Source: Candidatus Abyssobacteria bacterium SURF_17
Lineage (GTDB): Bacteria; Abyssobacteria; SURF-5
Assembly: GCA_003598055.1 (NCBI GenBank)
Contig: QZKI01000136.1
Coordinates: 1-64,000, forward strand
Direction: 5' to 3'
DNA length: 64,000 nt
In this document: in pieces, positions 7,715-45,547 of the stretch
Numbering within the stretch: position 1 is the first letter of the stretch
Layout of the letters: each line of letters begins with the position of its first letter
The notes under the pieces: model-generated
What the model saw: only the letters and a program-made list of their open reading frames with translations
Told to the model about the DNA's origin: nothing
Database searches by the model: none
Translations under genes and position numbers: made by a program

Positions 7715-9301
7715 TCAAGGGATGCGCAGGATTTTTCCGGTCTTGGCGCCGATTTGCTTGCCTGAAGACGCGACGTGTTTGCCGTTGATGAAGACGTGCT
7801 CGATGCCCGTCGGGAACAGGCGCGGATTCTCGTAGGTTGATGTGTCAATGATTGTCTTCGGATTGAATGCCACCACATCGGCGCAGAATCCTTCTTTGAG
7901 GAGGCCACGGTCGGCAAGCCCGAGCCGTTGCGCGCCTGCCGAGGTAATCTTCCTGATTGCCTCGGCAAGGTCGAGCACGTTTTCGTCTCTGCAATATCTT
8001 CCGAGCACTCGCGGGAAGGTTCCGTAAGCGCGGGGATGCGGCTTGCCGCCAAGGAGTCCGTCGGTGCAAATAGTCCCGGCCGGATGCTTGAGGATCGTTT
8101 TCACATCGGCCTCGTCGGACAGGAAGATAATCATGGACACATTGAGGTCTTCTTCCACGAGGAGGTCGCAAACGGCGTCAACGAACGGCCTGTCCATTGC
8201 CTCGGCTACCTCGAACAGGTTTTTCCCTTCAAGATACTTGTTCTTTTCGCTCTTGACAGAGGAGACAATGATGTCCGTGAGACCGATGCCGCTCGTGCTC
8301 GTGCGCGATGCCATCTCTTCCATGATTTGCTGCCGGATTTCGGCGCTCGTGAGCCGCTCGAGCATCTTGTCCGAGCCGCCTTCTTGAAGCCATTGCGGGA
8401 GGAGCGCGAACAGCATCGTGCTGCCCGCTGTGTATGGATGCTGGTCGAATGTGATTTCGAGGCCTTCCGCGCGGGCCGCATCAATTCTTTCGAGAAGCTC
8501 ACCGGCCCTGCCGTATTGAGGTTTGCCAGCGACCTTGAGATGTGAGATGTGCACGGGTGCTCCGGAGAGGCGCGCGACCTCAACCATTTCATCAAGCGAT
8601 TCCATGAGTTCGGCGTCTTCGCTTCGGATGTGAACGACGAAGAACTTGCCGTGTTTTCGAAGGACTTTGCAGAATTCGGCGAGCTCGTTCACGTCGGCAT
8701 AGGGACATGGCGGATAGATGAGACCCGTTGACATCCCCGCTGCGCCCGCTTCGAGGCTTTCGCGCAGCAGCCGCGCCATCTTCTTCATTTCGCCGTCGGT
8801 CGGCTTGCGGTTTTCCATTCCCATGACCCACAGGCGGAGCGAGCCGTGTGGCACGAGCGAGACGAGATTTGTCGTCGGCCTCGCCTTCTCCAAAGCGGAG
8901 AGGTATTCATCGAACGCGTTCCATGTCCATTCGACTTCCGGGTCGCCGAGCAGACCCGAAAGATGCCGTCGCCAGTTGGATTTGTCCTTGTCCTTGATGG
9001 GCGCGACAGACTGGCCGTCCTGCCCGAGCACCTCGGTCGTGACCCCCTGCATCACCTTTGCCGAGGCCTCGGGCTCGCTGAAAATCATGAGGTCCGAGTG
9101 ACTGTGCATATCAATGAATCCGGGGCAGACTACAAGACCGGTGCAGTCGATCACGCGGTTTGCCGACGACGCGCTCAGCGGGCCGATGCGTGAGATGCGC
9201 TTGCCTTTCAGGCCGACATCGGCGTTTCGCCACGGATTGCCGGCTCCGTCATACACGCGGCCGTTCCTCAGGATGAAGTCGAATTCACGCTTCGTGGTCA
9301 T
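7715..9301 (-). CDS. N-acyl-D-amino-acid deacylase family amidohydrolase
   Basis: A 528-residue metal-dependent amidohydrolase of the D-aminoacylase/dihydroorotase-like family. The N-terminal beta segment (FILRNGRVYDGAG) leads into GFIDMHSHSDLMIF with the HxH metal pair. Later His sites lie in FFVVHIRSEDAEL, VHISHLKVAG and TFDQHPYTAGS, and near the C-terminus is FCADVVAFNPKTI, the usual closing strand. Members hydrolyse N-acylated D-amino acids or related amides. The Cys ligand in the common GNCGFS motif is replaced here by GQDGQS, so metal binding or substrate may differ. The start at 9301 is chosen because GGAGG lies 6 bases upstream; a longer in-frame start at 9385 would fall in the repeat. 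It is probably cytoplasmic, as no signal peptide is seen. Confidence 0.85.
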   Translation of the reverse strand: MTTKREFDFILRNGRVYDGAGNPWRNADVGLKGKRISRIGPLSASSANRVIDCTGLVVCPGFIDMHSHSDLMIFSEPEASAKVMQGVTTEVLGQDGQSVAPIKDKDKSNWRRHLSGLLGDPEVEWTWNAFDEYLSALEKARPTTNLVSLVPHGSLRLWVMGMENRKPTDGEMKKMARLLRESLEAGAAGMSTGLIYPPCPYADVNELAEFCKVLRKHGKFFVVHIRSEDAELMESLDEMVEVARLSGAPVHISHLKVAGKPQYGRAGELLERIDAARAEGLEITFDQHPYTAGSTMLFALLPQWLQEGGSDKMLERLTSAEIRQQIMEEMASRTSTSGIGLTDIIVSSVKSEKNKYLEGKNLFEVAEAMDRPFVDAVCDLLVEEDLNVSMIIFLSDEADVKTILKHPAGTICTDGLLGGKPHPRAYGTFPRVLGRYCRDENVLDLAEAIRKITSAGAQRLGLADRGLLKEGFCADVVAFNPKTIIDTSTYENPRLFPTGIEHVFINGKHVASSGKQIGAKTGKILRIP

Positions 9302-9369
9302 GGTTTCCTCCGAATGCAGCAGGTTTCCCTGCGCGGCATAGCCGCAACCAAAGACGGAAGGGGATTTTG

Positions 9370-9441
9370 ACCACAAAGGCACCAAGATACAAAGGAAAGC
9401 TGGGGAAAAGGATTGTCTATGTATCTTGGTGCCTTTGTGGT
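9370..9441. repeat. MITE-like inverted repeat, family B (copy 1)
   Basis: Two 21-base arms match perfectly as inverted copies: ACCACAAAGGCACCAAGATAC at 9370-9390 and its complement at 9421-9441. A 30-base A/G-rich centre separates them. Family members occur at 24841-24922 and 35547-35629, with a single arm near 29318. The gene-free region 9302-9619 holds nothing else obvious. Confidence 0.85.
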
Positions 9442-9619
9442 TAGGAATCGTTTCTTTCTATATCTTTGCATGTGATATCGCAAGATCACGACAAGACTGC
9501 CTCATCTTGAAAGGTAATAGTACAGCGGGCGAATTGCAGGCCCAGTATTCGTCAGTGTGACAAACCTTACGAAATGATCTTGGCCTCTTGAGACCTTCTC
9601 GCGCAAAAGATTGGTTCGC

Positions 9620-10450
9620 TCATCCATGAGCATGCGAGAGCGAACTGAGGAAATTCAAGAGTGCTGATACGCACGCTTCCGGGTCGTCAAAGTATATCTC
9701 GTGCCATGCTCCTTCGATAGTCACGATGCGCGCGTTAGGAATGGCTCTCCGCATCTTGAGCTGCTCCTCGAGCGGTGAAATGGGACTCTTCGCGGGCGCG
9801 AGTATCAAGGTCGGAACATTCACCTCCGGCAGCAGAGACTCCACATTGACCGTTGCAGCCAGCCTCGCGAGATTGGCCAGCATCTTCGGCCGGTTCTTCG
9901 CCCATTCCGAGAGAATCCACTCTTCCTTTGCGCGCGTCGTGTCGCTGTGCGTGGCGCCGTATCCCATCAGCCCACGCACCCAGCCGTCGCCGCCCAATTT
10001 TTCCATTGCCGTAGGCCAATCCTTTTCGCCCACGGCGAAGATGTCCTGTATCTCGGGACGAATCGAGAGGGGGGCCGCCACGAGCGTGAGGCTTTTCAGG
10101 AGCTCAGGCCAACGGGCTGCCAATGCAATCCCGAGGATTCCGCCGACGGACTCGCCCACGTAATGCACCGAGCCGAGCTTGAGCGCCTCGATAACACCTC
10201 GGATGTCCGAGAGCAACTCGTCCACGCTCCATGCATGGTCGATGGGCGGGTCTGCAGATCGGCCGTGTCCTCGCATGTCCACCCGGAGCACGCGATATTT
10301 TCGGGACAGCGGCGGCACCCAGTGGTACCAGAACTTCCCGCTCCTCCCGAAACCGTGCTGAATCCAGATACTTTCAGCCTTGACCCATGGATCAGTAAAA
10401 TCGTCGAGTTCATAGTGGATGGCCAATTCATTGATTTTCACTTCAGGCAT
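9620..10450 (-). CDS. Alpha/beta-fold hydrolase
   Basis: A 276-residue alpha/beta hydrolase. It shows the oxyanion-loop region (IWIQHGFGRSGKFW), the VDMRGHGRSADP strand, the nucleophile elbow GESVGG (Ser at about residue 107) and a C-terminal His in GAWHEIYFDDPEA, so a Ser-Asp/Glu-His triad is plausible. The pattern resembles 3-oxoadipate enol-lactonase/esterase-type members, but the substrate cannot be assigned. The ATG at 10450 has AGGAGA 8 bases upstream, preferred over an in-frame ATG at 10501. It is a single gene with its own extended -10 promoter. Confidence 0.85.
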   Translation of the reverse strand: MPEVKINELAIHYELDDFTDPWVKAESIWIQHGFGRSGKFWYHWVPPLSRKYRVLRVDMRGHGRSADPPIDHAWSVDELLSDIRGVIEALKLGSVHYVGESVGGILGIALAARWPELLKSLTLVAAPLSIRPEIQDIFAVGEKDWPTAMEKLGGDGWVRGLMGYGATHSDTTRAKEEWILSEWAKNRPKMLANLARLAATVNVESLLPEVNVPTLILAPAKSPISPLEEQLKMRRAIPNARIVTIEGAWHEIYFDDPEACVSALLNFLSSLSHAHG

Positions 10451-38063: not shown

Positions 38064-39053
38064 GTGCAGAAATCACGGGAACAGAGCGAACGGAGATCAC
38101 TTCTGGAAGTGCCCGCAGTCAAGGTGATGGCGGGAACGCTCGTCTTTCTGGCATCGGCTGGCTTCTTCGGGTTTGTGGCCCTCAACGTCGCTATCAAGCA
38201 TGGCGAGAAGGTGACCGTTCCCAATGTGGTCAACATGGATGTGGTAGAGGCGCTCGACGCCCTCAGCAAGTACGGCCTGGAAATGAGAAAGACAGGGGCA
38301 CGGAACAGTAGCAGCATCCCTGAAGATTATGTGGTTTCGCAGGAACCGCGATCCGGAAGCGTTGTAAAAGAGGGCACAGCGGTCTCCGTCGTCATCAGCA
38401 TGGGGAGCAAGACAGCCGAGGTTCCCAATCTTGTCGGCAAGTCACTCCGTGAAGCACGGGTCGATCTGACGACCGCCGGACTAAGGGTCGGCCGCTTCTC
38501 GCGGATATACAACGCGAGCGAGCGCGAGACCGTGCTCGCGCAGTCTCCCCCATCAAAGCAGCAGGTGCCGCGCGAGACTCCTGTAAGCATGCTGGTCAGC
38601 CTCGGCCATCGGCCTCGCGAGTACAAAACCCCGAATTTTGTCGGCCTGTCTCTGGAGAAGGCGAGCGCACTGCTCAAATCGATGAACGTTAGCCTCGGCA
38701 AAATTCAGAGGAAAACCGACCATTCACGTCCGCAGGGCGTCATTCTCGAGCAGAGTCCCGCGCCTGGCTCGTTTATTGCGGAGGGCTCGTCGGTTTCACT
38801 CGTTGCAAACGCTCTCTCCGGTCAACGGTATCGGATGGAACGAAAATTCGGGGTGTTCCTGTATAAAGTGCCGTACGGATTCCGGCCGAAAGCCGTCCGG
38901 GTGGACCTTTCCGACACAGACGGTAAGAGGACCATCCATGAAGGGGTTAGCGAAGCCGGCAGCTCCGTCGCGGTGGGTTTTGCCTATTCGGGTAATTGCA
39001 CCGTGAAGGTTTACGTTGACGGTGTGTTGGAAGCAGAAAGGATATTCCGGTGA
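38064..39053 (+). CDS. PASTA-domain membrane protein
   Basis: A 329-residue protein with one N-terminal transmembrane segment (MAGTLVFLASAGFFGFVAL), cytoplasmic tail before it, and three PASTA domains outside (about 53-120, 121-190, 191-260: VPNVVNMDVVEALDAL; VPNLVGKSLREARVDL; TPNFVGLSLEKASALL). The remaining C-terminal part (about 265-329) is a beta-rich module. PASTA domains bind peptidoglycan or beta-lactam-like ligands and are usually on PASTA kinases or PBP2x; no kinase is attached here. The start is taken as GTG 38064. An ATG at 38127 (AAGGTG before it) would remove the cytoplasmic tail. The stop overlaps the rpe start (GTGA), so it is coupled to rpe. Confidence 0.85.
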   Translation: MQKSREQSERRSLLEVPAVKVMAGTLVFLASAGFFGFVALNVAIKHGEKVTVPNVVNMDVVEALDALSKYGLEMRKTGARNSSSIPEDYVVSQEPRSGSVVKEGTAVSVVISMGSKTAEVPNLVGKSLREARVDLTTAGLRVGRFSRIYNASERETVLAQSPPSKQQVPRETPVSMLVSLGHRPREYKTPNFVGLSLEKASALLKSMNVSLGKIQRKTDHSRPQGVILEQSPAPGSFIAEGSSVSLVANALSGQRYRMERKFGVFLYKVPYGFRPKAVRVDLSDTDGKRTIHEGVSEAGSSVAVGFAYSGNCTVKVYVDGVLEAERIFR

Positions 39054-39688
39054 AAGTTCTCATTGCCCCATCAATTCTCTCCGCCGATTTCTGCAGATTG
39101 GCCGAGGAGGTGGTCGCGGTCCAGGAAGCCGGCGCGGATTTGCTGCACCTTGACATCATGGACGGCCATTTCGTGCCGAACATAACGTTCGGCCCGGCCG
39201 TTGTAGGCGCCATCAAGTCCGTCGCCACGGTTCCTCTCGATGTTCACCTCATGATAGAAAATCCCGAGAAATTCATCGATGATTTCGCATCTGTGGGGGC
39301 CGACATCCTCACCGTACACGTCGAGGCATGTAACCATCTGCATAGGATTATCCACAAGATAAAGGATATGGGCATTAAAGCGGCCGTCTCGCTTAATCCA
39401 TCAACGCCGGTGGAAAGCATTCAGTACATGGCCGACGATGTTGATATGGTCCTGGTGATGTCGGTCAATCCGGGATTCAGCGGCCAGAAATTCATTCCGC
39501 AAGCGCTCAGGAAAATCGCGAGCGTTCGCGAGCTAGTGGGTTCGAAAAAGGATATTCAGGTGGACGGCGGCATAACGCGTGAGAACGCGTCTCGAGTGAC
39601 TGGGGCTGGCGCGAACATCCTGGTGGCCGGCTCGTCGGTCTTTTCCGCATCAGACTATGCCGAGGCCATCAAGGCGCTCCGTGGGTAG
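39050..39688 (+). CDS. rpe: Ribulose-phosphate 3-epimerase
   Basis: A 212-residue TIM barrel of the pentose phosphate pathway that interconverts ribulose-5-phosphate and xylulose-5-phosphate. Typical features are IAPSILSADFCRLAEEV at the start, LLHLDIMDGHFVPNITFGP with metal-binding His/Asp, DVHLMIENP, VMSVNPGFSGQKFI, and QVDGGITRENA. The GTG start overlaps the upstream stop in GTGA. It sits inside the rsmB-PASTA-rpe-kinase run. Confidence 0.96.
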   Translation: MKVLIAPSILSADFCRLAEEVVAVQEAGADLLHLDIMDGHFVPNITFGPAVVGAIKSVATVPLDVHLMIENPEKFIDDFASVGADILTVHVEACNHLHRIIHKIKDMGIKAAVSLNPSTPVESIQYMADDVDMVLVMSVNPGFSGQKFIPQALRKIASVRELVGSKKDIQVDGGITRENASRVTGAGANILVAGSSVFSASDYAEAIKALRG

Positions 39689-39732: not shown

Positions 39733-40167
39733 ATGCAAGACATTAGCCTGTCGCTGCCTTCAGACCCGAAACTCCTGCGCGCAATTCGGTGTATGATGGC
39801 GGAGCTTGCCGAATTATCGGGTCTCTCCGGGAAAGACAGCGAGCGGATATGCCTTGCCGTGGACGAAGCCTGCTCCAACATCATACGTCACAGTTACAAA
39901 GGGCGCACTGACGGACAAATCATCATCAGGTGTGCACTCGAAGCCGACAAGTTGAAAATCAGCATCAGGGATTTCGGCGAGAAGTTCGACCCCGACAAAT
40001 TACAGCCTCCCGATGGAGCAACGCCAAGGCCGGGCGGACTGGGAATTCAAATGATGAAGAGCATCATGGATACGGTGGAATACGACTGCTCGCATGAAGT
40101 GGGGACCGAGATACACCTGACCAAATATCTATCACTCCGGGAGACTCGTAATGGAAGTAAGCGCTAA
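39733..40167 (+). CDS. RsbW/SpoIIAB-like anti-sigma serine kinase
   Basis: A 144-residue GHKL ATPase of the HATPase_c_2 (anti-sigma factor/serine kinase) family. The N-box is CLAVDEACSNIIRHSY (about 40-56), where GHKL kinases bind ATP-Mg. ISIRDFGEKFD supplies the G1 box, and GGLGIQMMKSIMD the G2 lid region. Family members phosphorylate a partner STAS protein on a Ser and/or bind a sigma factor. The partner STAS gene overlaps it by 17 bases. No sigma-factor or PP2C phosphatase gene is near, so its target may be the Mla transporter genes' STAS protein. Confidence 0.93.
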   Translation: MQDISLSLPSDPKLLRAIRCMMAELAELSGLSGKDSERICLAVDEACSNIIRHSYKGRTDGQIIIRCALEADKLKISIRDFGEKFDPDKLQPPDGATPRPGGLGIQMMKSIMDTVEYDCSHEVGTEIHLTKYLSLRETRNGSKR

Positions 40168-40480
40168 GCGGTCAGGCAATGGAGCGGTCATTAAAGTATC
40201 CGGTGATGTCGACCTGTACTCATCGCCAAGATTGCGCGAGGCGATCCTTGATTCCGTCAAGAAGAGACTCACCCCGATTGTCGTCAATCTTGCCGGTGTT
40301 ACCTATATCGACAGTTCCGGAATAGCGACGCTGGTAGAGGGACTGCAACTCAGCAGGGAGTATGGTGGGAAGCTGCGTTTGGTCAGCCTGAATGACCGCG
40401 TGTCCGAAGTGCTCCATCTGGCAAGGCTGCAGCGGGTGTTTGAAATCCGCGGCACTGAAGCGGAAGCGCTCGAGGATTGA
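40151..40480 (+). CDS. STAS-domain protein (anti-anti-sigma / MlaB-like)
   Basis: A 109-residue single-domain STAS protein (SpoIIAA/MlaB fold). The start VIKVSGDVDLYSSPRLREAI and the conserved loop VTYIDSSGIATLVEG show intact Ser55/Ser56 at the phosphorylation position of SpoIIAA-type proteins. The gene overlaps the kinase gene and its stop overlaps the permease leader. In E. coli the STAS protein MlaB is a subunit of the MlaFEDB lipid-transport complex, which suggests this protein could be that subunit rather than a sigma-switch partner. GGAGA 7 bases before the ATG. Confidence 0.93.
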   Translation: MEVSAKRSGNGAVIKVSGDVDLYSSPRLREAILDSVKKRLTPIVVNLAGVTYIDSSGIATLVEGLQLSREYGGKLRLVSLNDRVSEVLHLARLQRVFEIRGTEAEALED

Positions 40481-40485
40481 GAGCA

Positions 40486-41283
40486 ATGGTGACATCGTTG
40501 CTGGGCTTCATCGGGAACAGAACCCAGAGCATCGCGAACGAGGCAAAGCGTCTCGGCCGATTGACGGCTGATGCGTTCGACTGGAGCTTTATCGCCCCGT
40601 TGACCGGCAGGGGCATAAAGTGGAAGAGCGTGCTGCGTCACATGGTCATCGTGGGGTTCGATTCCATACCCATCATCTGTTTTATCTGCGTGCTGGTTGG
40701 GGCGATCATCGCCATGCAATCAGCCTATCAACTGAAACACTTCGGGGCCGTACGATACATACCGCCGCTCGTGGGGGTGGGAATGACCCGCGAGCTTGGA
40801 CCACTGATTGCTGCCATCATCATGGCCGGCAGGAGTGGGTCGGCATTCACCGCGGAAATCGGGACAATGGTGGTTTCGGAAGAGGTGGATGCGCTCAAGA
40901 CGATGGTGCTCGAGCCGGTAAAGTTTCTGGTGGTTCCAAAATTCATCGCTATGATGGTAATGCAACCGTGCCTCACGATGATTGCCGACCTTGTCGGCAT
41001 GTTCGGCGGATTCCTCGTCGCAATCACAAGCCTGGAGATGGCTCCGAATCTCTATTTGGCCTATACCATTGATTACCTCGTCATCAAGGACATCATCACA
41101 GGCCTCGTCAAGAGTGTCGCTTTCGGAACGATTATCGCCCTGGTCGGATGCCACTATGGGTTCGCCGCCAGCGGCGGAGCTGAAGGTGTGGGAAAGGCAA
41201 CGACGCGGGCTGTGGTGACTTCGATATTCCTGGTCATCGTTGCGGATTGCGTGTTTACGGCCCTTTTCTACTTCGCCTTCTGA
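40486..41283 (+). CDS. mlaE: MlaE-type ABC transporter permease
   Basis: A 265-residue polytopic permease of the MlaE/YrbE family, which with ATPase, MCE protein and STAS subunit moves phospholipids between membranes. It has hydrophobic segments with the family's PPLVGVGMTRELGPLIAAII and MAGRSGSAFTAEIGTM motifs, and EVDALKTMVLEP. The ATG at 40486 is used. A TTG at 40477 overlapping the STAS stop (TTGA) would add three residues and would couple the two genes directly. The spacing supports one operon with the four following genes. Confidence 0.95.
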   Translation: MVTSLLGFIGNRTQSIANEAKRLGRLTADAFDWSFIAPLTGRGIKWKSVLRHMVIVGFDSIPIICFICVLVGAIIAMQSAYQLKHFGAVRYIPPLVGVGMTRELGPLIAAIIMAGRSGSAFTAEIGTMVVSEEVDALKTMVLEPVKFLVVPKFIAMMVMQPCLTMIADLVGMFGGFLVAITSLEMAPNLYLAYTIDYLVIKDIITGLVKSVAFGTIIALVGCHYGFAASGGAEGVGKATTRAVVTSIFLVIVADCVFTALFYFAF

Positions 41284-41292
41284 GAGAAACGT

Positions 41293-42132
41293 ATGCGGGA
41301 ACCCGAGTCGGGTGTTTTACGGCAACCAGGGGGAATTCGGTCTGACGCCGGTGTGCCCAAGGTCTCCGTCCGGAACCTTGTCGCCCATTACGGTGACGTC
41401 TTGGTCCTCGACGGCATATCGCTTGATGTCATGCCGGGCGAAACCATGGTGATATTGGGCGGGAGCGGATGCGGGAAGAGCACGTTCCTGCGATGTCTCA
41501 TCGGGCTCCACAAGCCGACCGCGGGCGAGATTCTCATTGATGGCGCAGATATCACCCGAACCACGGCAAGTGATTTTAATGCAATCCGGAAGAAATTCGG
41601 GGTCCTTTTCCAGAGCGCGGCCCTGTTCAATTCGATGACGGTTGCTGATAACGTGGCGCTGCCTTTGAGGGAACATACGGAACTTGAAGAATCAGTAATT
41701 GAAATCATGGTGAGAATAAAGCTCGAGCTGGTCGGACTTACGGGCGCAGAACATCTTCTGCCGTCCCAGCTTAGCGGCGGGATGAAGAAGCGCGCCGGAC
41801 TGGCCCGCGCGTTGGCGATGGACCCGGAGATTCTTTTCTTTGATGAGCCGTCTGCGGGACTTGACCCGCGCGTATCCGCCGACATAGACGCGCTTATTCT
41901 CAAGCTGAAAAGCGCTTTTCACATCACCATGGTGGCGGTGACACACGAGCTTAGGAGCACGTTCGCCATCTCGGACCGCATAACGATGCTTCATGAGGGA
42001 AAAGCTCTCTTTTCAGGCACACCTGCTGAGATCCGACAGAGCGACAATGAACTGGTGAAACAATTTCTCCGGGGCGAGCCGCATCCCGAGGGCGAGGGTC
42101 TGGGCGACTACCTCGAGGAAATACTCCGCTGA
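41293..42132 (+). CDS. mlaF: MlaF-type ABC transporter ATP-binding protein
   Basis: A 279-residue ATPase. Walker A is GGSGCGKST, the signature is LSGGMKKRAGLARAL, Walker B is ILFFDEPSAGLDP, and the H-loop is in VTHELRS. This MKKR signature is typical of Mla/MCE transporters. About 25 extra residues precede the usual first strand. It drives phospholipid movement through MlaE. It is 9 bases after the permease and 14 before the MCE protein gene. Confidence 0.95.
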   Translation: MREPESGVLRQPGGIRSDAGVPKVSVRNLVAHYGDVLVLDGISLDVMPGETMVILGGSGCGKSTFLRCLIGLHKPTAGEILIDGADITRTTASDFNAIRKKFGVLFQSAALFNSMTVADNVALPLREHTELEESVIEIMVRIKLELVGLTGAEHLLPSQLSGGMKKRAGLARALAMDPEILFFDEPSAGLDPRVSADIDALILKLKSAFHITMVAVTHELRSTFAISDRITMLHEGKALFSGTPAEIRQSDNELVKQFLRGEPHPEGEGLGDYLEEILR

Positions 42133-42146
42133 AGGAGCGTGGTGGA

Positions 42147-43142
42147 ATGGCATACAAGGCCGACGAAGTGAAGGTGGGTCTCGTGATTGTCGTGAGTCTG
42201 CTGATTTTGGCAGGATTTATTGTCTCGATTCTCGGCCTGCAGATAGGACGGCCCACCGATAGTTACACAACTGCGCTCCGATTTGCGGGGGGTATCGAGC
42301 CCGGCACTCCCGTGAGGTTTGGTGGCATGCAGGTGGGCAGGGTGGCGGCGGTGAACGTGCTGGAGACCGACAACACCCGCATTCAGCTCACCATGAGCAT
42401 TGACAAGGACACACCCGTCAAGGCCGACTCCGAAGTCTTCATTAATACCATCGGCTTTCTTGGAGATTATTATTTGGAAATCTCCACCGGCTCGCAGGAC
42501 AAACCCCTGCTCCCTCCGGGAAGCGAAATCAAAGGACGCGAATTGCCGAGCTTGTACGACATGATCGCCCGCGCTCAATCCGCCATCGAGAAGGTGGACG
42601 CTACGTTGGTAATACTGAATGATAAGGTACTGACCGAAGACGTTGCCGCTCTTCGAGAGCGAATACAGGTGGTCACCGAAAAGATGGCGCAGCTTCTCGC
42701 GGACGTCGATACCGTTTTCGACCAAGAGAATCGCGAAAACATCCGTCAGACGTTGCTGCAGGTCAGGATGCTCGTTCAGGAAAACCGAGAGGACGTGCAT
42801 GCGACAGTGGCCAACCTGCGGACGGCCTCCGAGCGGATGCAGTCCCTTGCGGCATCGCTCGATTCAATCGTCGGCGAGAATCGCGAGGATATCGAGTCCT
42901 TGATACACGAAATCCAAACGATGGCCGGTCAAATGCAATCGGCCGCGGAAGAAATCGACCGATTGGTCGCCGAGAATGCGGATGGAATCACCACCACAGT
43001 TCAAAACCTCAGGATTACCTCCGAGAACGCCCGTGACTTCAGCGAAACAATCTCCGATGAGCCCTGGCGGCTCATTTGGCGGACTCGTCAGCCGGAAAAG
43101 AAGCCCATCGAGGACCCTGATGTTACAGAGCATGCACAGTAG
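42147..43142 (+). CDS. mlaD: MlaD/MCE-family lipid-binding protein
   Basis: A 331-residue protein with one N-terminal membrane helix (VGLVIVVSLLILAGFIVSIL), an MCE domain at about 38-115 (GIEPGTPVRFGGMQVGRV, GFLGDYYLEIS), and a long helical coiled-coil region at about 140-310 with repeated Glu-Asn/Asp patterns (VFDQENRENIRQTL, LVQENREDVHATV). E. coli MlaD is shorter; the long helical extension fits the longer MCE proteins that span the periplasm. AAGGAG precedes the ATG. Its last bases overlap the auxiliary lipoprotein start. Confidence 0.93.
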   Translation: MAYKADEVKVGLVIVVSLLILAGFIVSILGLQIGRPTDSYTTALRFAGGIEPGTPVRFGGMQVGRVAAVNVLETDNTRIQLTMSIDKDTPVKADSEVFINTIGFLGDYYLEISTGSQDKPLLPPGSEIKGRELPSLYDMIARAQSAIEKVDATLVILNDKVLTEDVAALRERIQVVTEKMAQLLADVDTVFDQENRENIRQTLLQVRMLVQENREDVHATVANLRTASERMQSLAASLDSIVGENREDIESLIHEIQTMAGQMQSAAEEIDRLVAENADGITTTVQNLRITSENARDFSETISDEPWRLIWRTRQPEKKPIEDPDVTEHAQ

Positions 43143-43755
43143 CGCCGCAGGCGCCGTGCGATTGGCGCTGATGCTGGCATTCTGCGCTGTTGTTGCGTCG
43201 TGTGCGAGCACGCCGGCGCCGAATTACTATACCCTGGAACCGTCGACAGACGCCGAACCGGCCATTCGTGAGACCCCGCTTCCTTATACACTCGTCATCG
43301 CTCGCTTCGGGGCTGAACAACCATATGACAGTAGACGAATCGTGTGGCGTGCGGGTTCAAACCGTCTGGGATATTACCCACGTGAGAAATGGGCTTCGCT
43401 GCCCGAAGAGATGTTCTCATATAGACTGCATGAACGCGCGTACGGCTCCAATATGTTCCGCCACGTGAGCCTCGGCGTGGATGCCGACAACGCAGACCTG
43501 ATCCTGCGGGGCAGGATCACTTCATTTGAAGAGCTTGACACGCACGATGGATGGTTCGGGAAAGTCGAGATGTGGGCCGAGTTGGCGCAGAAAGACGGAA
43601 CTGTAGTCTGGAGCGGTATCGTAGGTCACACGGAACGTGCGACAGAACAGAACGTAGATGCCTCAGTTCGGGCAATCACCGAGGCGTGTGAAGTCGTTAT
43701 CAGCTCTCTCCTCTCTCACATTGATGACTCGCTGCGTGAAAGCTCCTCTGAATGA
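43120..43755 (+). CDS. ABC-type transport auxiliary lipoprotein (PqiC/LolA-like)
   Basis: A 211-residue lipoprotein of the transport-auxiliary family (PqiC-like), which in MCE systems acts at the outer membrane. A lipoprotein signal with lipobox VASC follows MLQSMHSSAAGAVRLALML, Cys at about 27. Family features are NYYTLEPS near the N-terminus, YYPREKWASLPEEM, and GRITSFEELDTHDGW. The ATG at 43120 has GAGGA 6 bases upstream, inside the end of mlaD (overlap 23 bases). It is the last gene of the ten-gene run; the convergent amidase gene begins 20 bases beyond its stop. Confidence 0.9.
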   Translation: MLQSMHSSAAGAVRLALMLAFCAVVASCASTPAPNYYTLEPSTDAEPAIRETPLPYTLVIARFGAEQPYDSRRIVWRAGSNRLGYYPREKWASLPEEMFSYRLHERAYGSNMFRHVSLGVDADNADLILRGRITSFEELDTHDGWFGKVEMWAELAQKDGTVVWSGIVGHTERATEQNVDASVRAITEACEVVISSLLSHIDDSLRESSSE

Positions 43756-43774: not shown

Positions 43775-45547
43775 CTACTTCTTCGATAGTGTCTGTGGCG
43801 TTCCCTGGCCGCTGTAATACTGCTTCAGAGCCTCAACAAAAGCGTGTGCGAATCGCTCGCGAAATGCCGGGTCGGTGACGAGCTCGCAGTCCACCGGATT
43901 GTTCAGGTTTGCCACTTCCACCAGAATCTTTGTTGGCACGATGTTATGACGGATGACCGCCGGCACCCATTCACGCCTCCGCCTGATCACATGATTGCGG
44001 ATGGGCTTTTCCGGAGCCACCATGATGTCGTTGCGCGCGAGAGAGTCAATTACACATTTCCCGAGATCGCCCGAGAGACCTTCCGACCTGACCCTATCCT
44101 TGTAAGAAATTTGAACAAACTGCCCTTCCTTTACCTCGGCCCGTGAAGTATATTCATGGCCCGATTTACCGCCGTTTCCCTTGCAATAAAACGTGCCGGG
44201 AATATAGACCATCGTGCCCCTCGCCTCGGGATGCAATGAGTCAGCGTGGATGCTGACAAAGACCACCCTGTCGGGACTGACTCCCTGTGCGGTTTCTTTC
44301 CGGAATACGGAATTTGCCAGGTACCATCTCAAATTGGCTGAAACCGAAGCGTTATGGTTCCGATAGATCGGATTTGTCAGCACATACTCATCTGAATCGT
44401 TGAAGAAGTACGTCTCATCCTTCGGCTCATACTGATCGCTCTTATCAACAAGCGTTGAAACTACTTTAGCCGTTGTCCTTAGTTCGAGTAATCGTTTTAT
44501 CCGGCACATGATGTCATAAGCAATTTCGTCTTCGTACACCCCCTTTCTTCCGATAGCGCCGGGGTCGTTCCCCCCGTGACCGGGGTCGAGAATCACGATG
44601 ATGCCAGCGAGGTCGGCAGTCTGAACAGGATTCGAATATTGCTCCGTTTCTCGCCGTATCCGCTCATATTCCTGCCTCCTCGGGTCGTCCGGGGGCAAAT
44701 ACATCGGCGAAAGCAACTCGAGCGGAATCTTCACTTCATCGCCCATCTTCAGCGTTCTCGCATTCTTGATGCCGCTTCGGCTGCAGATGATATCCACCGC
44801 CTCCATGACATCCTCAGCGGTGACTCTATCCGTAAATTTCATGACCACTTTGGAATAGATGGTGTCTCCCTTTTTCAATCGATACGAGGCATATGGACCC
44901 TTCGGGTCAGCCTTGAGCATCAATTCCCCGTTGAGCCGCCTTGCTTCTTCCGTGGGAGCCGCTGCCGCACGGCGGGCCGCTATCTCGAACAGAATTGGCT
45001 GCTTGAAGGCAGGTGAGAGCAGCTCGGTGGGAATCTTTATCGTTGTGCCCTTGTAGAGTTTGGTGCGCCCTGACATCTGGTTATGGGCCATTATCTTCTT
45101 ATAGTTCTGGGCATTGCCGGTGAACCATTTACTGATGCTCCAAAGCGTCTCGCCTCCCTGCCTACGCGAAGAAACATAGGTAATCTTGTGAACCCAGCCG
45201 GACTCATTGTATGAGTCATTCTTGAAAAGAGTCTTTATGGCCTCCAGTTGATAATCTCCGATGAGTTCTGAAAGCGGAACCCTCATGCATTCTCCACTCA
45301 TAAATCGCGTATATTTCTCCGGATTCGCGAGCACTCGGGCAGCCCATTCCACCGCGTCGCAGTCATCAAGGGGACAAGCGGTGACGTAGATTTCCTTATC
45401 GTCGTCCAATTCTGCTTTCAGCCCCGGCTCGATTGATTTTTTGACATCGCAATAGGCTTGTGGAGCAAGTGCAGACAGAAGGGTGACGACGATGAAGAAG
45501 TAACAAAAGACAAAAATTGCCCGTGGCCTGGCCTGTTCTCGTTCCAT
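43775..45547 (-). CDS. LysM-domain N-acetylmuramoyl-L-alanine amidase
   Basis: A 590-residue exported cell-wall hydrolase. Signal peptide (FVFCYFFIVVTLLSALA, cleavage after AYC-type site). LysM-like peptidoglycan-binding region at about 129-178 (GGETLWSISKWFTG). A second LysM-like region at about 218-275 (LKKGDTIYSKVVMKF). The catalytic Amidase_3 domain spans about 311-575, with zinc-ligand motifs ILDPGHGGNDPGAIG, the middle Glu region (GVYEDEIAYDI), and SIHADS. It cleaves the amide between MurNAc and L-alanine, in cell separation or wall turnover. It converges on the Mla lipoprotein gene; a minus-strand promoter lies upstream. Confidence 0.92.
   Translation of the reverse strand: MEREQARPRAIFVFCYFFIVVTLLSALAPQAYCDVKKSIEPGLKAELDDDKEIYVTACPLDDCDAVEWAARVLANPEKYTRFMSGECMRVPLSELIGDYQLEAIKTLFKNDSYNESGWVHKITYVSSRRQGGETLWSISKWFTGNAQNYKKIMAHNQMSGRTKLYKGTTIKIPTELLSPAFKQPILFEIAARRAAAAPTEEARRLNGELMLKADPKGPYASYRLKKGDTIYSKVVMKFTDRVTAEDVMEAVDIICSRSGIKNARTLKMGDEVKIPLELLSPMYLPPDDPRRQEYERIRRETEQYSNPVQTADLAGIIVILDPGHGGNDPGAIGRKGVYEDEIAYDIMCRIKRLLELRTTAKVVSTLVDKSDQYEPKDETYFFNDSDEYVLTNPIYRNHNASVSANLRWYLANSVFRKETAQGVSPDRVVFVSIHADSLHPEARGTMVYIPGTFYCKGNGGKSGHEYTSRAEVKEGQFVQISYKDRVRSEGLSGDLGKCVIDSLARNDIMVAPEKPIRNHVIRRRREWVPAVIRHNIVPTKILVEVANLNNPVDCELVTDPAFRERFAHAFVEALKQYYSGQGTPQTLSKK

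Follow-up and report, generated by a model that had tools for sequence, protein, structure and literature searches.

A probable partner switch with an Mla-type lipid transporter as its output in Candidatus Abyssobacteria bacterium SURF_17 and related systems

Known partner switches and the SURF_17 locus

Partner switches such as RsbU-RsbW-RsbV-SigB and SpoIIE-SpoIIAB-SpoIIAA-SigF combine a PP2C phosphatase, a GHKL serine kinase and a STAS substrate with a phospho-serine position. A kinase and a STAS gene of these types lie within an Mla lipid-transport operon of Candidatus Abyssobacteria bacterium SURF_17 (assembly GCA_003598055.1), in the stretch of 64,000 nucleotides analyzed here (contig QZKI01000136.1, positions 1 to 64,000; hereafter the window). 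Judging from sequence comparisons, it is quite likely that the pair belongs to a partner switch whose output is not a sigma factor but the Mla/MCE lipid ABC transporter, with the STAS protein seated on the ATPase MlaF under the control of the kinase and a GAF-PP2C phosphatase. In contrast to RsbW-SigB and SpoIIAB-SigF, this Mla module is without a sigma factor, its neighbor and probable target is MlaFED, and its kinases mostly cluster apart.

Outputs other than sigma factors have precedents. In the SiaABCD scheme, a serine kinase and a PP2C phosphatase switch the STAS-like protein SiaC, and a diguanylate cyclase is the output. SypE/SypA of Vibrio fischeri (PMC8256260) and SiaABCD of Pseudomonas aeruginosa (PMC8457831) resemble the present module in having a STAS or STAS-like protein that a serine kinase and a PP2C phosphatase switch toward an output other than a known sigma factor. 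There, biofilm regulation and a diguanylate cyclase take the place that a transporter would have here. Because SypA and SiaC already provide such outputs, the kind of switch is known and the transporter output is new. We found no publication on MlaE with RsbW, on MlaE with partner switching or on an MlaB kinase in the open-access literature, a search that may miss subscription papers and preprints, and Mla and ABC transporters both go unmentioned in a review of STAS-only proteins.

The transporter itself is similar to E. coli MlaFEDB, with homologues of MlaE, MlaF and MlaD and with a C-terminal extension (CTE) and a helical-subdomain patch at the MlaB site of MlaF. It differs in its RsbV-type STAS protein, in its dedicated kinase, and in having an auxiliary lipoprotein where E. 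coli has mlaC. We know of no MlaB kinase in E. coli and, to our knowledge, little has been learned about how bacteria control phospholipid traffic to the outer membrane. The 2020 study of the MlaFB structure left it as a question whether MlaB is phosphorylated, and it proposed no kinase by name (PMC7367683).

A preliminary description of the window had placed an RsbW-like kinase and a STAS gene inside an Mla operon, and gene calls and family scores bear this out. It was also right that the kinase gene overlaps the STAS gene (by 17 nucleotides) and that the STAS stop codon abuts mlaE (5 nucleotides before the ATG). The MlaE permease, the MlaF ATPase and the MCE protein are encoded together in one operon, with these features:

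39733..40167, plus strand: serine kinase of RsbW/SpoIIAB type, Mla-linked subfamily, 144 residues (PF13581 HATPase_c_2, 104 bits)
39865..39879, plus strand: kinase N-box E45-A-C-S-N49, with the catalytic Glu and Mg-binding Asn assigned by homology with SpoIIAB
40151..40480, plus strand: STAS protein of RsbV/SpoIIAA type, 109 residues, proposed subunit in the MlaB position and kinase substrate (PF01740, 75.5 bits)
40313..40318, plus strand: STAS Ser55-Ser56, from alignments to SpoIIAA Ser58 and E. coli MlaB Thr52
40486..41283, plus strand: mlaE permease, from ATG; an in-frame TTG at 40477 is also possible (PF02405, 261 bits; TIGR00056)
41293..42132, plus strand: mlaF ATPase (PF00005; best NCBIfam match MlaF, 210 bits)
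41695..41718, plus strand: mlaF helical-subdomain patch V135..I138-M139..I142, from the comparison of kinase-linked with STAS-less MlaF
42109..42126, plus strand: mlaF CTE Y273-LEE-I277-L278, aligned with E. coli Y261/L265/L266
42147..43142, plus strand: mlaD, MCE-domain protein (PF02470, 60.8 bits)
43120..43755, plus strand: ABC-type transport auxiliary lipoprotein, ABC_trans_aux (PF03886, 27.8 bits, just over the cut-off of 26)
39050..39688, plus strand: rpe, upstream of the kinase (PF00834)

Conservation of the kinase beside Mla transporters

A search for the kinase over 60 genomes recovered the order kinase-STAS-mlaE at five further loci; one of them belongs to the same family as the window (60% identity), the remaining four to different families. 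The arrangement pointed out in the preliminary description is therefore conserved in relatives, and two of these loci encode a fusion of the kinase with a GAF-PP2C phosphatase. A kinase alignment scanned against GTDB contigs retrieved 80 named loci, the closest named relatives, and mlaE/mlaF are found at 77 of them. The kinase lies upstream on the same strand in 62 of these, on the opposite strand in 12 (Thermodesulfobacteriota) and downstream in 3 (Verrucomicrobiota). Mla-linked kinases occur in at least twelve phyla (Nitrospirota, Thermodesulfobacteriota, Calditrichota, Nitrospinota, Pseudomonadota, Verrucomicrobiota, Tectimicrobiota, Omnitrophota, Auribacterota, Planctomycetota, Methylomirabilota and Myxococcota), and candidate division KSB1 also has one. 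As the query was built from Mla-linked kinases, the figure of 77/80 is a property of this subfamily and not of all RsbW-like kinases. The same gene order in unrelated families, together with the Mla linkage of these 77 relatives, places the association beyond chance.

In the Thermodesulfobacteriota loci L051, L053, L059, L065, L070, L077, L104, L112 and L113, an mla operon of the order mlaF-mlaE-mlaD-STAS diverges from the kinase, with a PP2C gene in most. An equivalent auxiliary lipoprotein gene follows mlaD in many relatives. The position of rpe upstream of the kinase is kept within the family only, being shared by L010 and absent from more distant loci. Downstream, a LysM/N-acetylmuramoyl-L-alanine amidase gene (43775-45547, minus strand) is convergent with the window operon. 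One Latescibacterota locus (L049) has a kinase and a PP2C, both of Mla-linked type, and a DSSG STAS with no mla gene within 6 kb, and a sigma-factor gene about 5 kb off.

A census from the transporter side avoids the bias of the kinase query. mlaE was searched in 192 genomes, 149 loci were fetched and all neighbors were scored. RsbV-type STAS and kinase genes were present together at 11 loci, STAS only at 1, kinase only at 0 and neither at 137 (Fisher p = 9e-16, a value that ignores shared ancestry). At the STAS-only locus (L200) a short contig starts with the STAS gene, and a second short contig from this genome (L282) ends with a PP2C-kinase gene; L200 STAS-mlaE-mlaF and L282 PP2C-kinase are probably one operon split by assembly. 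Both kinds of system can share a genome: G195, from a proteobacterium, has a kinase-linked operon as well as a classical MlaB operon that lacks a kinase.

Kinase, phosphatase, STAS protein and the probable docking site on MlaF

The best curated relative of the window kinase is RsbW (88.6 bits, under the equivalog cut-off of 145), and the nearest solved structure is also RsbW (6m36_A, E=8.6e-17). It is a GHKL serine kinase with intact N-box Glu and Asn and intact G-boxes. The alignment shows R19, E45, N49, G101, G102 and G104 in every one of 90 Mla-linked kinases, and 88 of the 90 form one cluster apart from RsbW and SpoIIAB (5 changes versus 28.7 after shuffling, with many forks unresolved). 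Plasmid relatives are mostly RsbW-SigB loci with about 30% identity. At L034:1453-2232, a single open frame joins a STAS domain to an RsbW-like kinase domain downstream of it, a naturally occurring fusion of substrate and kinase. The window genome also contains a second, separate switch cluster (L285, C56:10000-22000), where two HATPase_c_2 domains, two STAS domains and a PP2C lie close together.

The preliminary description overlooked a GAF-PP2C phosphatase, a component that makes the switch complete in most relatives and that this genome encodes at another site. A SpoIIE/RsbU-type PP2C accompanies the kinase in 61/77 Mla-linked loci, adjoining in 57 and fused in 4. All 50 PP2C proteins scanned (49 Mla-linked and one from contig C55 of the window genome) have the GAF-SpoIIE architecture. 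Throughout this set D243, D261, D382, D433 and D434 (first-row numbering) are invariant, five aspartates that we take to be metal ligands. The C55 protein, a REC-GAF-PP2C of 531 residues (L283:6516-8111, minus strand), groups inside the Mla-linked PP2Cs and is, we infer, the likely unlinked cognate phosphatase of the window kinase. Its gene adjoins one for a GAF-histidine-kinase-REC protein (8211-10010). If the C55 phosphatase is cognate, the Mla switch would come under a two-component system.

The Ser-Ser pair reported earlier at the SpoIIAA phosphorylation site of the STAS protein is present. Within the motif D54-S55-S56-G57, S55 aligns with SpoIIAA Ser58 (chain 1th8_B), which is the phosphorylated residue, and with the Ser of RsbV DSTG; S56 is its neighbor. 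The same position is Thr52 in E. coli MlaB. Serine occupies it in 93/93 STAS proteins linked to both Mla and the kinase (DSSG in 90, SSAG in 3). The window protein scores 84.9 bits with the anti-sigma antagonist model TIGR00377 and 24.3 bits with the MlaB model NF033618, below the latter's cut-off of 90. Its AlphaFold2 model (pLDDT 96) ends in an additional strand and helix, which MlaB is without (PMC7367683), and hence does not share the minimal fold of MlaB. Its closest folds are SpoIIAA (TMq 0.89) and RsbV in the RsbV/RsbW complex (0.85), with E. coli MlaB farther away (0.59-0.65). The model thus points to an RsbV-type STAS protein in the role of MlaB.

E. coli MlaB binds the helical subdomain of MlaF and the CTE of the neighboring MlaF, where Y261, L265 and L266 were named; T52 lies near the center of this interface, and T52E weakens MlaF binding (PMC7367683). 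We compared 82 kinase-linked with 115 STAS-less MlaF proteins, using no structural input, and the columns that differ most are these MlaB-docking sites. Positions 138, 139 and 142 (window numbering) are hydrophobic in 85-100% of the kinase-linked proteins versus 10-45% of the unlinked ones, where they are mostly charged. The extension Y273...I277-L278 is present in 79-80/82 linked proteins and aligned in only 7-12/115 unlinked ones, and in the window it corresponds to Y261/L265/L266 of E. coli, in an alignment whose E. coli fragment was checked against the PDB chain. The absence of a predicted STAS-MlaF interface would have spoken against the preliminary description; on the MlaF side the docking features are there, as the window MlaF has both the CTE and the hydrophobic helical-subdomain patch.

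Among proteobacterial loci, 12/13 operons scored with a stand-alone MlaB have the extension and those with a STAS-MlaE fusion do not, so it tracks a stand-alone STAS subunit; it also occurs in 4/7 loci without a visible STAS, where short flanks may have cut off mlaB. This tracking is good evidence for the window STAS sitting on MlaF. Because kinase-linked MlaFs carry both the CTE handshake and the hydrophobic patch at the MlaB site, the window STAS most likely fills the MlaB position.

A working model and its alternatives

The kinase probably switches lipid transport on and off by phosphorylating one subunit of the transporter, given that the two are neighbors in at least twelve phyla and that a matching phosphatase mostly accompanies them. 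The STAS protein with unphosphorylated Ser55 would bind MlaF in the MlaB position and support assembly or activity of MlaFED. The overlapping kinase would bind the same STAS face and phosphorylate Ser55, blocking MlaF docking and lowering transport. GAF-PP2C would reverse this phosphorylation when its GAF domain (here perhaps also its receiver domain) senses a signal. The earlier proposal of a kinase acting on Mla through an MlaB-like subunit gains support from the Mla linkage and from the docking features of MlaF; phosphorylation of S55, its sign (off when phosphorylated), its effect on transport and the input signal are what we infer.

Several observations weigh against this model. Kinase-linked MlaF sequences fall almost into a single clade (3 changes), which means that neither the MlaF signature nor the census p-value is independent of phylogeny; the census is properly read as showing one ancient Mla transporter subtype co-inherited with the kinase. 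MlaB proteins that have no kinase often carry Ser or Thr at the phosphosite too, and we therefore rejected the serine as a discriminator. No PP2C adjoins the kinase in 16/77 Mla-linked loci, nor in the window. The kinase could also have an additional binding partner that is unlinked. Of all steps the sign is the most uncertain, since E. coli MlaB T52A is inactive though still MlaF-bound (PMC7367683); by analogy, phosphorylation could act on activity rather than on binding.

One alternative is that information flows in the reverse direction. The STAS protein would leave MlaF when transport is idle or stressed and bind the kinase, here an anti-sigma factor, thereby freeing an unlinked sigma factor; the operon would be an envelope-stress sensor. 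In its favor, sigma factors are the usual end point of partner switches, the kinase and the STAS protein resemble RsbW and RsbV in sequence and fold, and R19, invariant in the Mla-linked kinases, is conserved in RsbW. However, when the sigma factors of the window genome served as queries, none of the Mla-linked loci yielded a sigma gene, while one was detected next to the non-Mla kinase L023 in the same search. The pattern that would have contradicted the preliminary description, pairs always with sigma factors and never with Mla genes, is therefore not observed; of the partner genes it had considered, only the PP2C turned up. Among the 8 sigma-70 region 2 genes of the window genome, the two scored against NCBIfam are of FliA/WhiG type (SigBFG model 136 bits, cut-off 234) and ECF type, and three others group with an RpoD-like set by similarity. 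With the genome at 92% completeness, a SigB/SigF gene could still be missing from the assembly. We rejected sigma-factor control, as no sigma gene is nearby and neither scored sigma factor exceeds the SigBFG cut-off, and reverse flow appears unlikely.

It is quite improbable that the STAS protein is a plain MlaB subunit and the kinase a co-transcribed regulator of some other envelope-acting pathway. E. coli MlaB does work without any known kinase, but the association described here is kept through three gene orders and at least twelve phyla, the kinase never occurs at mlaE loci without an RsbV-type STAS, and the phosphosite is invariant. Chance neighbors or an inactive kinase relic are hardly credible given the conserved overlap and gene order, the census, the Mla linkage at 77/80 loci and the intact catalytic residues in 90/90 kinases.

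The reading we favor, a partner switch ending on the transporter, can likely be extended to a widespread class of Mla/MCE transporters gated directly by a dedicated kinase and GAF-PP2C through a phosphorylated RsbV-type STAS on MlaF. By genome context in at least twelve phyla, the module supplies the missing kinase and phosphatase, and it predicts a phosphosite (S55), a competitor surface on MlaF and a sensor domain (GAF). Phosphoregulation of MlaB, an open question in the 2020 study, is thereby made testable. If true, partner switching would extend from transcription to the direct control of an ABC transporter.

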